Assembly (NCBI GenBank): GCA_905210875.1
Contig: CAJLYN010000027.1
Location: 1-16,264 of the forward strand
Origin: an uncultured Bacteroides sp.
Lineage (GTDB): Bacteria > Bacteroidota > Bacteroidia > Bacteroidales > UBA11471
Length of the DNA: 16,264 nt
Direction: 5' to 3'
Shown here one piece after another: positions 3,379 to 13,540 of the stretch (positions are counted from its first letter, which is position 1; the number at the start of each line of letters is the position of its first letter). A model generated the notes under the pieces. That model saw only the letters and a program-made list of their open reading frames with translations, had not been told where the DNA came from and ran no database searches. A program made the position numbers and the translations under genes.

Positions 3379-3457
3379 ATAACCATTCCATCGCTTACTC
3401 CCTTGAGTAATTCAACATCGCCACTGTGGCCTCAAAGCCACCTTCCTCACATAGACA

Positions 3458-3492
3458 TAGAAAAAGCCGGAATTAAATCCCGGCTTTTTCTA
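3458..3492 (-). terminator. Terminator of the leucine-rich-repeat gene, probably bidirectional
   Basis: A perfect 13-bp stem, TAGAAAAAGCCGG (3458-3470) with CCGGCTTTTTCTA (3480-3492), around a 9-nt loop. Read on the minus strand it lies 21 bases after the stop of the leucine-rich-repeat gene and ends in a T-rich arm. The symmetry means it can also stop plus-strand readthrough from the ferredoxin side. Confidence 0.8.
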
Positions 3493-3513
3493 TATCAGGC
3501 AAGAACAAATTGC

Positions 3514-4899: not shown

Positions 4900-4927
4900 A
4901 GCAATCGAGTTTTTTTGTATTATTGCA

Positions 4928-4943
4928 TATATTTGCAAAGGTA
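4928..4943. promoter_or_regulatory. Two abutting, divergent -7 promoter elements
   Basis: TATATTTG (4928-4935, plus strand) touches CAAAGGTA (4936-4943), which is TACCTTTG on the minus strand. Both match TAnnTTTG. They lie in the 122-base spacer between the leucine-rich-repeat gene and the metalloprotease gene and could serve the two genes in opposite directions. The -33 elements are poor at the usual 19-21 nt spacing on both sides; only T-runs or off-spaced TTTG are present. The minus-strand promoter is the more believable of the two. Confidence 0.45.
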
Positions 4944-5021
4944 TAAAAATGTTTGAGCAAAAAAAATTTCTTCTTTTTTTTATGCAGAAAACATCACATT
5001 AATACACCAACACCATCAGAT

Positions 5022-7637
5022 ATGAGACTCTTTAACGTAAACCTTATTTGTTTTTTGCTTACGATTGGTATTCTGTCGGGAATATCGACAGAGGCCATGG
5101 CCAAACGAAAAAAGTTGCTGAGAAAGAAAAGCGACACGACACTGGTCGTTCCCAAACCCAAGGAAAATAAAGACAGCGTTGAATATCACAAACTGATAAA
5201 AGATGCCGTCACCCGGGAGGGCCTCCTGACCACCCACTTCACGCCACAAAAGAAACTCTATTGGGAGATTCCCGACTCGGCTTTTGCTCATACCTATATG
5301 CTGTCGAACCGTATCGCTGCCACCAGCAACACACAAGACTTCGTAGCCGGGCAGATGGCCACCCAGCCCATCTTGCTGCAACTCAGCTGCGACAGTATCA
5401 ATGTATACCTGCACAAGGTACAGACCCAAAACAGCGTCGACAAAGACGAGTCGATAGCGGCTGCTTTTGACAAGAATTTCCTGAACCCCGTACTGAAAGC
5501 CTTCAAAATCGAGGCACGCAACAAAGGTAATGTCGTTATCGACGTAACCTCGTTTTTCGGCGGAAATGAAAAATGTATCTCTCCGATAAAACCGTCGAAC
5601 CCTCTTGCCAAGCTATTGGGTGGCGACAGCGGCATAAAAGGGTCGTTCGTCTCAAACGCCTCATCGATAAACGAAGTAAAAACTTTCCCGCGCAATATCG
5701 AGATAAAAAGTTCGCTTACCTTCAACACCTCTCCGATGGATGAGCCCTATACCGTACAGATGCACCGCTCGTTTATCGTCCTGCCCGACGAGCCCATGCC
5801 CATGCGTCTGCAAGACAACCGCGTAGGCTACTTTTACAGCGACCGTTCGCACTATACGACCGAGAAAGACAAGGTCGACGAATATACTTTCATTCACCGC
5901 TGGCGTCTCGAACCGAAACCCGAAGACCGTGAACGCTATTTCGCCGGCGAACTTGTGGAGCCGCAAAAGCCCATCATCTTCTATGTCGACAGCGCTTTCC
6001 CCGACAAGTGGAGAGATGTTGTAAAACAGGGCATCGAAGACTGGAACACCGCTTTTGAAGCAGCCGGATTCAAAAATGCCATTCAGGCCCGCGACTATCC
6101 CAAGAACGACCCCGATTTCGACCCCGACGACATGCGTTACAGTTGCGTGAAATACGCTGCCACGACCATCGCCAACGCCATGGGCCCGAGTTTTGTCGAC
6201 CCCCGCAGCGGAGAGATTCTCACGGCCGATGTCATCTGGTATCACAACATCGTATCACTCCTGCACAACTGGCGCTTCTGCCAGACGGCTGCCACCGACC
6301 CCCGCGTGCGCAAAACCGTCTTCGACGACGAAGTGATGCGCGAATCGATGCGCTATGTCGCTTCGCACGAGATAGGACACACCCTCGGTCTGATGCACAA
6401 CATGGGCGCTAGCTTCGCCTACCCCGTCGACTCCCTGCGCAGTCCCTCTTTCACACAGAAATACGGCACGACCCCCAGCATCATGGACTATGCCCGCAAC
6501 AACTACATCGCTCAGCCGGGCGACTACGAGCGGGGCGTGAAACTCACACCGCCCGTACTGGGAGTCTACGACATATATGCCATTGCCTGGGGCTACCGCC
6601 TCATTCCCGGTGCCGACACCCCCTTGGAAGAGAAGCCCACCCTCAACCGCTGGATTGTTGAGAAAATGGGCGACCCCATGTACGAGTTCGGTGCCCAGCA
6701 GTTCATGGCCATCATCGACCCCACCGACCAGACCGAAGACCTGAGCAATGATCACCTGCGAGCCGGCGACTACGCCATCTCCAACCTGAAAATCATCATG
6801 GACAACCTGGAAAAATGGGCAGCCGAGCCGGGCGAACCCTATGACGATCTCGACGAGACCTATGACCAGCTGGTGAAACAGTATACCCGCCACATAGGCC
6901 ACGTGATGACCTACATCGGCGGTGTGGAATTCAAAGATGCCCGACAAGGCAACGGGAATGCCGCTCGTACCCATCTCGACCGAGCCACCCAGAAGAAAGC
7001 CATGCAATGGCTCATGCGTCAGGCACGCACCTACAACGACTGGCTCACGCCGACCCCGCTGATGATGAAACTCGACCGCAACCTCAACTGCAACGACAAA
7101 CTGGCCAGCAGCATCGTAGGCAGCCTGCTCAACAGCACGGCTCTTTACCGTATCGACGAGAGCGGACAGGTGAACGCCAAGAAAAACTACACCCTCGAGA
7201 CCTATCTCGACGATGCCCTCTACGAACTGTTCAAGACCTCCTACCAGGGGAAACGGCTCAACGATACCGAACGGCTCATTCAATCGTCGGCACTGGCCGT
7301 CATGGTGAAATACAGCGGCCTCACCCCGGCTTCGGGAAAGAAATCGACCTCGGCCAAAGCTCTTGCCGACTATTCCGATGTCATGGCTCTCGGATATAGC
7401 CCCGAAGTACCGTGCAGCCACGCCGCTTGCCAGGCCCAGCGAGAAGAAGAGGTTTCGTTCCTGCGCATCAATATGGGACAACCCGGCATCGAAAATAACC
7501 GCATCGCCCCGGTCATGACCGCCCATCTCAAAAAAATAGAAGCGCTCTACAAACAGCAGCGCTCTCGCACCAGCGACAAGACCACGCGCAACTTCTATGA
7601 CTATCAGCTGCTGAAAATTCAAGAGTTGTTCAACTGA
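5022..7637 (+). CDS. Exported zinc-dependent metalloprotease (metzincin type, DUF5117/DUF4953 family)
   Basis: 871 aa from the ATG at 5022, the start that places a signal peptide (MRLFNVNLICFLLTIGILSG to about residue 27, ending EAMA) at the N-terminus; the frame extends 23 codons upstream without support. The active site is HEIGHTLGLMH at 449-459, the metzincin HExxHxxGxxH pattern with three zinc-binding histidines and the general-base E450. A Met-turn candidate is SIMDY with M488. The order of an N-terminal beta-rich part (about 35-290), the catalytic part (about 330-520) and a long helical C-terminal part fits the Bacteroidetes zinc-dependent metalloproteases carrying DUF5118/DUF5117/DUF4953. 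It has no T9SS tail and no lipobox, so the final location (periplasm or outer membrane) is open. The SusC gene follows after 17 bases, implying one transcript and a role in supplying peptides. Confidence 0.9.
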   Translation: MRLFNVNLICFLLTIGILSGISTEAMAKRKKLLRKKSDTTLVVPKPKENKDSVEYHKLIKDAVTREGLLTTHFTPQKKLYWEIPDSAFAHTYMLSNRIAATSNTQDFVAGQMATQPILLQLSCDSINVYLHKVQTQNSVDKDESIAAAFDKNFLNPVLKAFKIEARNKGNVVIDVTSFFGGNEKCISPIKPSNPLAKLLGGDSGIKGSFVSNASSINEVKTFPRNIEIKSSLTFNTSPMDEPYTVQMHRSFIVLPDEPMPMRLQDNRVGYFYSDRSHYTTEKDKVDEYTFIHRWRLEPKPEDRERYFAGELVEPQKPIIFYVDSAFPDKWRDVVKQGIEDWNTAFEAAGFKNAIQARDYPKNDPDFDPDDMRYSCVKYAATTIANAMGPSFVDPRSGEILTADVIWYHNIVSLLHNWRFCQTAATDPRVRKTVFDDEVMRESMRYVASHEIGHTLGLMHNMGASFAYPVDSLRSPSFTQKYGTTPSIMDYARNNYIAQPGDYERGVKLTPPVLGVYDIYAIAWGYRLIPGADTPLEEKPTLNRWIVEKMGDPMYEFGAQQFMAIIDPTDQTEDLSNDHLRAGDYAISNLKIIMDNLEKWAAEPGEPYDDLDETYDQLVKQYTRHIGHVMTYIGGVEFKDARQGNGNAARTHLDRATQKKAMQWLMRQARTYNDWLTPTPLMMKLDRNLNCNDKLASSIVGSLLNSTALYRIDESGQVNAKKNYTLETYLDDALYELFKTSYQGKRLNDTERLIQSSALAVMVKYSGLTPASGKKSTSAKALADYSDVMALGYSPEVPCSHAACQAQREEEVSFLRINMGQPGIENNRIAPVMTAHLKKIEALYKQQRSRTSDKTTRNFYDYQLLKIQELFN

Positions 7638-9407
7638 ATTTCCTTTTTTAAACTATGATGAAACATATTTCTCTCCTGTTGCTGCTGACTCTCTTCTGCT
7701 CGGCGATAGCCGTCGGGCAAGAGAGCAGTTCGCCCAAGATTACCGGATACATCGTCGACTCTTCGGGTAACCCCATTGCCGGCGCCACCGTGAAGATAAA
7801 AGATTCAACGACAGCCACCATCACCGACGGCAATGGCCAGTTCTCCCTGGCGGTGCCTGCCAGTGAATCGACGCTCATCGCTTCGTTTCTCGGATACCGT
7901 AATCACGAAGTCTCCATCACCCCGACGACACAATCTCTCAAAATCACCCTTGAAGAAGATGCCCAGCAACTCGACGACATCGTTGTCGTAGGATACGGAA
8001 CACAGAAAAAGTCGTCACTCACCAGTTCGGTCGAAGTGGTGAGGGGCGAAGACTTGAAACGTATGCCCGTAATGAATGTCAACGAAGCCTTAGTAGGCCT
8101 CGTGGCCGGTGTGTCGGTACAGAACTCGACCGGCGACCCCAGTTCGGGTAAGGAGTCGGACATTCGTATTCGCGGCATCAACGGAACGCCGCTCCTTGTC
8201 ATCGACGGAGTGCCCCGTTTCGGAGAGAACACCTCCGACGGCGAAATGCGCCTCTCCGACCTTAACCCCGACGACATCGAAAGCATCTCCCTGCTGAAAG
8301 ACGCTGCCGCCGCAGCCGTGTATGGCGCACGGGCCGCCAACGGCGTAATCCTGGTCAAGACCAAACGTGGAGAAGACAACCAGAAGGTGCGCGTCAACTA
8401 CCGGGGACAGTTCAACCTGCAACAGGCCACCTGCCTGCCCGACTTCCTCAACGCCGAAGAGTTTGCCACCCTTTACAACCGTGCCGTCGACGCCCGTGGC
8501 GACGACGTCTACGAAAAATACGACCTCGAAGCCATCAAGAACAACCCCAATCTTTACGGAGACGAAAACCTGCTCGACTACCTCGACAAGTTTGGCTACT
8601 CAACCCTCCACAGCCTCTCGGTATCGGGTGGAAACAAGTTTGTGAAATATTATATATCGGGTGGTTATACAAATATAAAGGGACTCTATTCCGGTGTGGG
8701 ACGCGACCGCTTCAACTATTCGGCCAAACTCGATGCCTACATTGTCAAGGGACTGACCCTCTCGGTCGATATCACCGGGAACCGCTCCAACAACAAAAAT
8801 ACCAGCTATACAACCATCGACGCGGCATACAGCTACTCTCCGTTGCAAGTGCTGCGATACACCTCGGGCGAACTGGCCAGTATCAGCGGCAGCAACCCGC
8901 TGCTGGCTGTCGACGGACTGGGCGGCTATATCCGCAACAAGACCAACTTCAATACACTGTCGGCCACGCTCAATTATGAGTTGCCTTTCTTGAAAGGAAT
9001 GTCGGTCTATCTGAGAGCTACCGTCGACAACAACAACTCCATCAACACGACATTCAGCAGTCCCGAGACGCTCTATCTCTACGACAGCGAGACAGGCGAA
9101 ATATCGGAAGACCCGCTGACCACCTATCCGACCGCCAAAATCAGCCTCTCGCAACGCGACCAGTTTGTCGACAACAAACTCTTTGAGGGAGGCATTAACT
9201 ACACCAACACGTTCCGCGAGCGGCACGATTTCAGCGCCATGCTTGTGGCCAACTATCAGGACTACCGCAACCGCTACATGACCGGTACCAACAACGACAT
9301 GGCCGGGAAATACCCCGAAGTCATCGGTACGGCCACCGACAGCAAACTGGTGGGTAACGAATATTTCTACCAGCGGGCCTCGCTCATCGGACGTTTTACC
9401 TACGGAT

Positions 9408-10727
9408 TTGACAATCGCTATTTCCTCGAAACAAGTTTCCGCGTCGACGGCTCTACCAAGTTACCGCCCGATACGGTGGGGATTCTTCCCCACCGTATCG
9501 GGAGCCTGGGTACTCTCCAACGAGTCGTTCTTCCGCTCGTGGGATCAGCCGGTCATCTCCAACCTCAAATTCCGTGCCTCGACCGGTATTCTGGGTCGTG
9601 ATGCCGTACTCACCGACTTCGGCTATCTCATGAACTACGTCTACACCACCGGCTCGGGCTATCAGATAGGCGGGAATTTCAAGCCGGGTATCATCACCGA
9701 CCCCAACAGTTTTCCCAATCCCGACCTGAAATGGGAAAAGAGTCACGACTACAACATCGCTGTCGATGCCGGATTGTGGAAAAACCGCTTTGCCGTTACC
9801 TATGAATACTATTGGCGCTTCAAGACCGACATGCTCACCTATGCTCCCACCTATCTCTATCCGCCTTCGGCCGGTACGGGAGGTAATGTACCCTACATCA
9901 ACTTCGGCAAGGTGAAGGCCTGGGGCTGGGACCTTACCCTCACACACAAAAACAGTATCGGCCAATTCAAATACGACATCGGTGTCACGGTATCGAAAAC
10001 CTTCGATGTGGTACTCGACTACGGCGATGAATCGTCGGTTGTAGAACATCAGCGCCGCAAAGGGCGCAGTAGCCAGTTGTGGCTGCTCTACCAGTCGGAC
10101 GGGCTGTTCCAGTCCTGGGAAGAGATAGCCAACTATCCCGTCGACCAGGACGGCATGGGCAACACCACACTGGCTCCCGGCGACATCAAATATAAAGATG
10201 TCGACGGCGACCATGTCATCACCGCCAACGACCGGGTATACGTCAAGAGCTCGGCCTACCCCGACTTCTCGATGAGTCTAAGTCTCGGATTGAGCTACAA
10301 AGGGTTCTTCATGAATGCCATGTTGCAAGGAGTTGCCGGTTACCAGCAACAAATAACCGAACTTTATACGCTCGAAAGCAGCAGCTTGCAACGATTCCAA
10401 CGTTACCATCTCACCGATACCTGGACCGAAGACAACCCCGATGCCACCTATCCGCGCATCAAGTTTGCCTCGAAAAACGACAACAACCGCAAAGAGTCGG
10501 ACTTCTGGATTCGCAACTGCAACTACATGCGTCTGCGTTCGCTCACCATCGGGTATGCCCTCCCGGCCAAGCTGCTCCAAAAGAAGAAAATCAACTCGGT
10601 AAGCATTGCCCTGCAAGGAAGCAACCTCTTTACCATCTCCTCCCTTGAAGACGGTATCGACCCCGAATCGCTGCGCGGATATCCCATACAGCGATCTTAT
10701 GGTGTAACTCTCACTTTCGGTTTCTAA
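9408..10727 (+). CDS. C-terminal barrel half of the broken SusC-like transporter
   Basis: This is the second reading frame of the SusC gene. Its true homologous content begins at the CGG codon at 9474 (RWGFFPTVSGAW), about 417 residues, and includes typical late-barrel SusC sequence (for example GDIKYKDVDGDHVITANDRVYV, and SNLFTISSLEDGIDPES near the end, terminating in the strand YGVTLTFGF with a final phenylalanine). The ATG at 9408 lies before the lesion and its first 22 or so codons overlap the first half in another frame, so it is not a natural start. Without a signal peptide or plug this piece would not reach the membrane by itself. Gene finders may call it as a separate gene. Confidence 0.6.
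   Translation: MTIAISSKQVSASTALPSYRPIRWGFFPTVSGAWVLSNESFFRSWDQPVISNLKFRASTGILGRDAVLTDFGYLMNYVYTTGSGYQIGGNFKPGIITDPNSFPNPDLKWEKSHDYNIAVDAGLWKNRFAVTYEYYWRFKTDMLTYAPTYLYPPSAGTGGNVPYINFGKVKAWGWDLTLTHKNSIGQFKYDIGVTVSKTFDVVLDYGDESSVVEHQRRKGRSSQLWLLYQSDGLFQSWEEIANYPVDQDGMGNTTLAPGDIKYKDVDGDHVITANDRVYVKSSAYPDFSMSLSLGLSYKGFFMNAMLQGVAGYQQQITELYTLESSSLQRFQRYHLTDTWTEDNPDATYPRIKFASKNDNNRKESDFWIRNCNYMRLRSLTIGYALPAKLLQKKKINSVSIALQGSNLFTISSLEDGIDPESLRGYPIQRSYGVTLTFGF
9467..9502. repeat. Perfect 16-bp inverted repeat at the SusC frameshift
   Basis: Left arm CCCGATACGGTGGGGA (9467-9482), loop TTCT (9483-9486), right arm TCCCCACCGTATCGGG (9487-9502); all 16 positions pair. It sits inside coding sequence. The right arm encodes conserved SusC sequence (FPTVSG) in the downstream frame, while the left arm contains the frame change. 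Confidence 0.95.
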
Positions 10728-10744
10728 CTTTTAGCTTCATGACA

Positions 10745-12523
10745 ATGAAAAAACTGCTATATACGACACTCCTCTCGTTCCTCTTGCTGAATATATCGAC
10801 AAGTTGCAACGACCTGTTTGAAGAGATACCCTACGATAAACTGTCGGAGAATGCCATCTGGGGCGACGAACTCCTCCTCGACGAGTATGTCCTGCCCTGG
10901 TACCGCAACATGGACGACGGCTTCTCCACCTACGTTACCACCATCATGAAAGGTATCGGTCGGGAATACGAGCCATGGTATGGCGACCAGTTGACCGTGA
11001 GCCGCTCGGAATGGTACAACGCCGACTACGGCGACATACTCCGCAGCAGCCAACAGGAACTTACCACCCGTGGTCGCACCAAATGGAGCTCGTTCTACAC
11101 CCAGATACGCTCAATCAACGTACTGTTTCAGAATGCCGACCAGATTCCGGAAGGCGACCATAAACAACGGGTGCTGGGAGAGGCACACTTTTTCAGGGCC
11201 TACTACTATTACCTGCTGCTACGCATGTACGGAGCACCCATAATCCTCACCGAGCCCTACGACCCACTCACCGACACCCGGCAACTCACCCGTGCCACCT
11301 ATGAAGAGACGGTCAATTTCATTGCCTCTGAGGCCGACCAGGCAGCAGCGCTGCTCGATGCCAACATTCCCGAGAGCGATGCCGGACGTGCCTCCAAAGG
11401 GGCGGCATTCATGCTCAAAGCCAAAACCTACTTCTGGGCTGCCGGCGTGAAATTCCAGAACCGTGCCGAGTCGTATCTCGGCTTCCCCGACGACCGTACC
11501 GACCGCATGTACACCTTGGCGGCCAATGCCTACGACTCACTCATGGCTCTCAACCAGTATGAGCTGATACAAATTGCCGAGACCACACAGGAGGGTATCG
11601 CCGAAGCCTATCACAACATATTCCTGACCAAGAACAGCAAAGAATCGATATGGGAAGTGCAACACAGCGATGACGGCAATTACGATACCGAGTTTGGTCA
11701 CAAGCTCGACCGCGAGACCGCTCCCCCCTCGTGCTACGGCACATTTGCGGCCTATGTGCCCACCCAGAACCATGTCGATGAATACCGCACCGTGAGCGGC
11801 CAGCCCATCGCAACGGCCAGCGACTACGACGAGAACAACCCCTATCTCAACCGCGACTACCGCTTCTACGCCAACGTACTCTACGACGGCTGCTCATTCA
11901 AGGGGAAAACGCTCGAAATACATTACATCTACGACCGTCCGGGCGGCAGTTACACCCGTGGTGCAGACCTCACAGCCTACGGCTCGTCGGAGCAGGCCAC
12001 CTACACCCGCACCGGCTACTACATGAAAAAGTTTGTCAACGAGTCACAGCAAATCGACAACGACGACACCTATGCCAGTAGCCAGAACTGCATCTTGTGG
12101 CGCTATGCCGAGGTGCTGCTCGACTATGCCGAGATTGACTTCAAACAGGGACGCATCGGCGATGCCATGGACAAGCTCAACGAGATACGCCGCCGTGTAC
12201 ACATGCCCGAATATACCTCGATAACGTGGGACGACATCGTAAACGAGCGCCGTGTGGAACTGGCCTTCGAGAAGTCGACCTACTGGGACCTCCTGCGCTG
12301 GGGCATCGCCGAGGAGAAGATGAGTGGGAGCACCAACCCCCTCCGCGGTGTGAACATCTACAAATACCAGGACGGCAGCCCCACGGTCTACCGCGAGAAA
12401 ACGGTCAACGGCACCGACAATACGGTGCGCTACTTCCGCGAGATGCAATATTACTGGCCCATACCCTGGGACGAGATACGCCGCCACGGTATTCCGCAAA
12501 ATCCGCAATGGCTCGAAATGTAA
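10745..12523 (+). CDS. SusD/RagB-like nutrient-binding outer-membrane lipoprotein
   Basis: 592 aa from the ATG at 10745; an ATG two codons earlier (10739) is also possible and would lie 11 bases after the SusC stop. The N-terminus (MKKLLYTTLLSFLLLNISTS, then C21) is a lipoprotein signal with lipid attachment at C21. The block LGEAHFFRAYYYYLLLRMYG in the first third is a hallmark of the SusD TPR-like helical scaffold, and the C-terminal part (about 440-592) has the usual ERRVELAFEKSTYWDLLRWGIAEE and closing PIPWDEIRRHGIPQNPQW sequences. SusD proteins form the lid over the SusC barrel on the cell surface and hold the substrate. Next to two proteases, a peptide substrate as in RagB is plausible but not shown. 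The gene is intact although its SusC partner is broken. Confidence 0.93.
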   Translation: MKKLLYTTLLSFLLLNISTSCNDLFEEIPYDKLSENAIWGDELLLDEYVLPWYRNMDDGFSTYVTTIMKGIGREYEPWYGDQLTVSRSEWYNADYGDILRSSQQELTTRGRTKWSSFYTQIRSINVLFQNADQIPEGDHKQRVLGEAHFFRAYYYYLLLRMYGAPIILTEPYDPLTDTRQLTRATYEETVNFIASEADQAAALLDANIPESDAGRASKGAAFMLKAKTYFWAAGVKFQNRAESYLGFPDDRTDRMYTLAANAYDSLMALNQYELIQIAETTQEGIAEAYHNIFLTKNSKESIWEVQHSDDGNYDTEFGHKLDRETAPPSCYGTFAAYVPTQNHVDEYRTVSGQPIATASDYDENNPYLNRDYRFYANVLYDGCSFKGKTLEIHYIYDRPGGSYTRGADLTAYGSSEQATYTRTGYYMKKFVNESQQIDNDDTYASSQNCILWRYAEVLLDYAEIDFKQGRIGDAMDKLNEIRRRVHMPEYTSITWDDIVNERRVELAFEKSTYWDLLRWGIAEEKMSGSTNPLRGVNIYKYQDGSPTVYREKTVNGTDNTVRYFREMQYYWPIPWDEIRRHGIPQNPQWLEM

Positions 12524-13506: not shown

Positions 13507-13540
13507 GAAGGCTGTGAGTGGAGACCCGCTCACAGCCTTC
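13507..13540 (+). terminator. Hairpin terminator after the SusCD operon
   Basis: A perfect 12-bp stem, GAAGGCTGTGAG (13507-13518) with CTCACAGCCTTC (13529-13540), around a 10-nt loop in which further G-C pairs could form. It begins 28 bases past the stop of the last operon gene. The following bases are TCTACACC rather than a T-run, so termination may be partial. Confidence 0.6.

Follow-up and report, generated by a model that had tools for sequence, protein, structure and literature searches.

A SusC gene that is read in two frames raises the question of whether the break is real and, if so, how it arose. The gene belongs to a locus of a gut Bacteroidales bacterium within a stretch of 16,264 nucleotides (contig CAJLYN010000027.1, from an uncultured Bacteroides sp.), which was analysed as a whole and is referred to here as the window. 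The upstream part of the gene occupies 7655–9601, and the downstream part continues in another frame to 10727.

A split SusC gene and its palindrome

The features of the locus, with positions in the window unless a relative is named, are as follows.

4953–7637: Met-zincin with DUF4953, preceding SusC
7655–9601, plus strand: upstream part of SusC, an open frame of 648 amino acids, the last 40 or so of them shifted, with a stop at 9601
9467–9482, plus strand: left arm of the palindrome, the derived and probably rewritten one; the counterpart in the relative L001 (L001:4724–4741) has 18 nt and is imperfect
9472–9476, plus strand: replaced segment of five bases, where the SusC frame breaks; L001 has seven bases (L001:4729–4735); exact complement of the opposite right-arm bases
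9483–9486, no strand: loop of the palindrome, 4 nt
9487–9502, plus strand: right arm of the palindrome, the putative template; identical in L001; encodes part of FPTVSG
9477–10727, plus strand: downstream part of SusC, in the other frame; contains a 365-amino-acid stub from the ATG at 9630
10739–12523, plus strand: SusD partner, intact
After SusD: small protein with a sub-threshold match to a secretion tail
After the small protein, last in the order of the locus: M6-like peptidase with a BACON domain

Pfam searches placed TonB plug and carboxypeptidase-regulatory domains in the SusC part upstream of the break. The downstream part, searched alone, gave no Pfam match, and its relatives in a protein search are SusC/RagA fragments; an intact relative, P0001, gives a full-length match to solved SusC homologues. 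The product of the split gene is predicted to be non-functional, beside an intact SusD, and transport would presumably be lost.

The frame breaks in the left arm of an inverted repeat at 9467–9502, the two 16-bp arms of which are 100% complementary and enclose a 4-nt loop. We reproduced the coordinates, arms and loop given for this repeat in the original prediction, which also stated correctly that the right arm encodes the FPTVSG segment in the downstream frame. No other perfect inverted repeat in the window with a loop of 3–20 nt is as long; the second longest (14 bp, 3457–3493) is intergenic. In simulation, 30 first-order Markov sequences as long as the window had longest arms of 8–11 bp, and the 16-bp palindrome is thus far longer than expected by chance. 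Folded as single-stranded DNA, the site has an energy of −21.4 kcal/mol, compared with −9.9 kcal/mol in L001, and as RNA the hairpin has −36.1 compared with −20.9 kcal/mol. The hairpin lacks a terminator-like tail, and a simple scan found neither a terminator nor a promoter there. No match was obtained when a plasmid collection was queried with 9200–9800 or when the first 28 bases of the palindrome were sought among viral contigs.

The sister sequence and the direction of change

The closest relative found is L001, an uncultured Bacteroidales metagenome-assembled genome (MAG; CALUZW010000003.1) with a SusD that is 96% identical; Porphyromonadaceae, Bacteroidales and Coprobacter MAGs follow at 80–86%. 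SusC of L001 is a single open frame of 1,024 codons, with 92.7% DNA identity to the window over 3,075 bp. On either side of the replaced segment, the window and L001 agree at every base, over 56 bp ending at 9471 and over 68 bp starting at 9477; the latter stretch takes in the right arm and the loop. The left arm of L001, by contrast, is imperfect and two bases longer, leaving a repeat with stems of 6 bp (inner) and 5 bp (outer). The five bases of the window stand against seven in L001, a difference of four edits within seven columns; all four match the right arm, and together they produce its exact reverse complement. The templated match at the replaced segment is 16 nt in length and spans the whole cluster of differences.

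Alignment to the closest homologue had been proposed as a check, and it came out as foreseen: the left arm of L001 is longer and imperfect, and every differing base of the window is the complement of the right arm. The original prediction further held that two bases had been lost and that adding them would restore the frame. The length difference is indeed two bases, but the change consists of four edits and is therefore larger than a bare two-base loss, which strengthens the case for a templated origin. The codons guessed for the left arm, D-T-R, proved wrong, as the nearest relatives (L001, L028 and P0001) encode E-N-R.

The direction of the change follows from the relatives. In a tree of 20 sequences, the window pairs with L001 (support of 0.948) in a clade that also holds P0001, L028 and P0002, all of which have E-N at the site; in the next group, seven of eight members have D-N and one (P0006) has D-T. 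The clade that surrounds the window has the longer form, and the 39 other sites compared have stems of 0–6 bp; the imperfect state is therefore taken as ancestral and the perfect state as derived on the window branch. The longer E-N arm, from which the window differs by four edits, is thus the most likely ancestral form; with a GAT-type D-N arm, three edits would suffice. The site reads intact in the 11 closest full-length proteins among the matches listed (P0001 and P0003–P0012). By pattern, an R/K-W..F-P site is present in 112 of the 120 best matches listed for the upstream frame and absent in 8.

A two-base deletion and separate substitutions might have completed the palindrome by chance. 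Clusters of differences do arise between the window and L001 (158 with at least 2 differences, among 788 differing alignment columns), and a GAT-type ancestor, needing three edits only, would make the match less improbable. However, the four edits fall in seven columns amid 124 bp that are otherwise identical, and all of them match one template: only 1 of the 1,024 possible five-base replacements yields the 16-bp stem. We regard independent mutations as very improbable.

Templated clusters were also sought across three genome pairs, restricted to alignments that reach 85% identity and 1.5 kb and to clusters with 3 or more differing columns. Among the 748 clusters, no other of the 625 flagged as coding had a 16-nt templated match. 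The one other coding-flagged cluster that reached at least 12 nt (4926, 14 nt) sits between divergent genes, where the simple open-reading-frame mask overreaches, and the strongest match of all 748 (13519, 21 nt) is non-coding. At the same threshold of at least 12 nt, control templates gave two matches when reversed, none when complemented and none when distant.

Small inversions and palindromes differ between the window and L001 at other places. In the hairpin at 13507–13540, between the small protein on the SusD side and the M6 peptidase, a spacer of around 10 nt is inverted relative to L001, with a 21-nt templated match, as a template switch with spacer inversion would give. Just 5′ of the metzincin gene (4973–4987), a 14-nt stretch between T and A runs is exactly inverted; only two core columns differ, and chance is possible. 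At 4926–4931, between the divergent genes, the palindrome of L001 is more perfect than that of the window (14-nt templated match). This site may overlap promoter boxes, and selection could also account for the change.

At the SusC site itself, an imperfect ancestral repeat, a perfected derived arm, clustered edits with unchanged flanks and a direction of change are all found, as expected of quasipalindrome correction, the explanation put forward in the original prediction. We consider it likely that the SusC frame was broken in this way, by a template switch in the cell that copied the right arm onto the left. The ancestral gene would have carried 6-bp inner and 5-bp outer stems around the 4-nt loop, separated by an unmatched internal loop of seven bases against five. 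During DNA synthesis, the growing strand would have left its true left-arm template at the hairpin, copied from the right arm instead and then returned, replacing the seven unmatched bases with the complement of the five opposite ones. The palindrome would now be perfect, at the cost of two bases and of a frame broken around 606 codons into the 1,024-codon gene. We infer both the polymerase event itself and its occurrence in the cell, rather than in the tube, from this comparison of alleles.

Age and reality of the break

Downstream of the break, dN/dS relative to L001 is 0.026 (7 nonsynonymous and 64 synonymous differences). The part upstream of the break has 0.072, SusD 0.046, the metzincin 0.055 and the M6 peptidase 0.123. 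As no decay has followed the break, it is either recent or not real. The earlier view that the remainder of SusC and its SusD partner are intact, and that the event is recent if real, agrees with these values.

If the break is not real, a template switch in library amplification or a consensus error produced it, and SusC of the living cell is intact. In addition to the absence of decay, the strong hairpin at the site would favour such an artefact, and so would the protein of the close relative P0002, which ends exactly at R-W, the hairpin core, although probably at a contig end. Moreover, none of the 120 best matches listed for the upstream frame contains any six residues of the shifted tail, so that the allele was not seen elsewhere by that route.

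The downstream stub points the other way. The 365 residues from the ATG at 9630 are identical to a database protein, P0124, which has been called as a gene on two contigs (up to 26,402 bases long) and comprises five member sequences. A protein search with SusD listed no match of 100% identity and thus gave no such contig count for the SusD of the window. A gene caller normally reports such a stub only when the frame is broken upstream; the break has therefore probably been assembled twice, although both assemblies may draw on one set of reads and one of the two contigs may be that of the window. The alignment of the window to L001, 11.5 kb at 93.2% identity, also argues against error. It contains eight indels, and the hairpin indel is alone in breaking a frame inside a conserved gene; the other seven lie closely 5′ of the probable start of the metzincin, in intergenic DNA or at the stop codon of SusD, or have lengths divisible by three. 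Finally, the ancestral arms would share only 6- and 5-bp stretches, which should be too short to confuse a k-mer assembler. On balance, an artefact seems unlikely, and we retain quasipalindrome correction in the cell as the explanation.

Recurrence, precedents and meaning

Outer-membrane genes of Bacteroides are known to phase-vary, and an RNA hairpin of −36.1 kcal/mol is very stable. A reversible on/off switch of SusC and programmed recoding at the stem had been listed among the alternatives, but neither gained support. At W-G-F-F-P sites in other loci, the same-register perfect stem measures only 0–6 bp in 39 of 39 cases, counting identical local sequences once and leaving out loci without a matching motif (L018, L025 and L026, of 26 loci, and L033). 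Recurrent change at the site, as in a phase-variable locus, is thus not seen (0 of 39 with a long stem), and neither is a relative that combines the same perfect palindrome with an intact frame, a case that the original prediction had named as evidence against itself. Templated P-T patterns were found in 0 of 393 Bacteroidales genomes and templated P-S patterns in 0 of 198, each a weak test of limited sensitivity, since the intact-motif pattern itself appeared in only 8 of 60. The lost bases have no template in the perfect palindrome, so the same route could not restore the frame. Recoding would require a +1 shift; inspection revealed no slippery site (the original prediction had noted no strong one), and the stem is not conserved, whereas programmed frameshifting would combine the two. 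Switching or recoding is hardly credible here, and the SusC break looks like a private event rather than a family-wide switch.

The frame is open through the W-G-F-F-P site, as far as the locus reaches, in 38 of the 39 cases. In the exception, SusC of a Prevotellaceae MAG (L012), an in-frame TGA (L012:4680–4682) occupies the codon before the W of the motif, and the palindrome does not explain this stop. Among N-terminally truncated SusC gene calls in other species, some start just after the motif, judged from the protein calls alone.

Template switching at small inverted repeats could also be raised in the lineage of the window or of its sister, with the SusC break as one outcome. Templated matches of at least 12 nt occur in 3 of 71 clusters in the 12.5 kb compared between the window and L001, whereas two other pairs of the family have 1 such cluster in 375 and none in 302 (Fisher P = 0.003; 0.024 without the SusC site; 0.18 without the SusC site and the promoter cluster). 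As the window was chosen for its SusC site, only the values of 0.024 and 0.18 count. With that site set aside the evidence is thin, and we consider a raised rate quite unlikely.

Quasipalindrome mutation has reportedly been described in E. coli and phage T4 (Ripley, 1982), with a hotspot in thyA (Viswanathan, 2000). In the account of the process in the part of PMC7202029 drawn on here, a polymerase stalls at an imperfect inverted repeat and then copies from the nascent strand, so that the two arms end up better matched. The SusC allele resembles the E. coli and phage T4 mutations covered there in that one arm is copied onto the other, bases are gained or lost and the frame changes. Those cases, however, come from mutant selections or reporter systems, and their rates are known, whereas ours is one natural allele of an uncultured Bacteroidales, read from comparison. 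In yeast REG2, according to the corresponding part of PMC8604942, a 5-bp arm became a 16-bp arm; there, too, a coding repeat acquired perfect 16-bp arms on one branch, through clustered changes that match the other arm. The yeast cases in that part are amino-acid replacements, whereas SusC has lost its frame and is predicted to be null. Quasi-palindromes are only touched on in passing in the part of PMC11838912 used here. Literature searches returned nothing on SusC with quasipalindromes (judged by the titles listed), nothing that combined template switching, inverted repeats and TonB in Bacteroidetes, and no papers for template switch mutations in bacterial genomes.

The SusC break, as we read it, is clearly a new example of an already known mechanism, and its general importance is modest because our scans found no recurrence. 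Its value lies in the unmutated sister with identical surroundings, which shows how a single step at a hairpin within a coding region can inactivate the gene. Bacteroidota have numerous SusC genes. Many of them share the W-G-F-F-P motif, the codons of which can form a short hairpin core, and the same accident could therefore silence other uptake genes.
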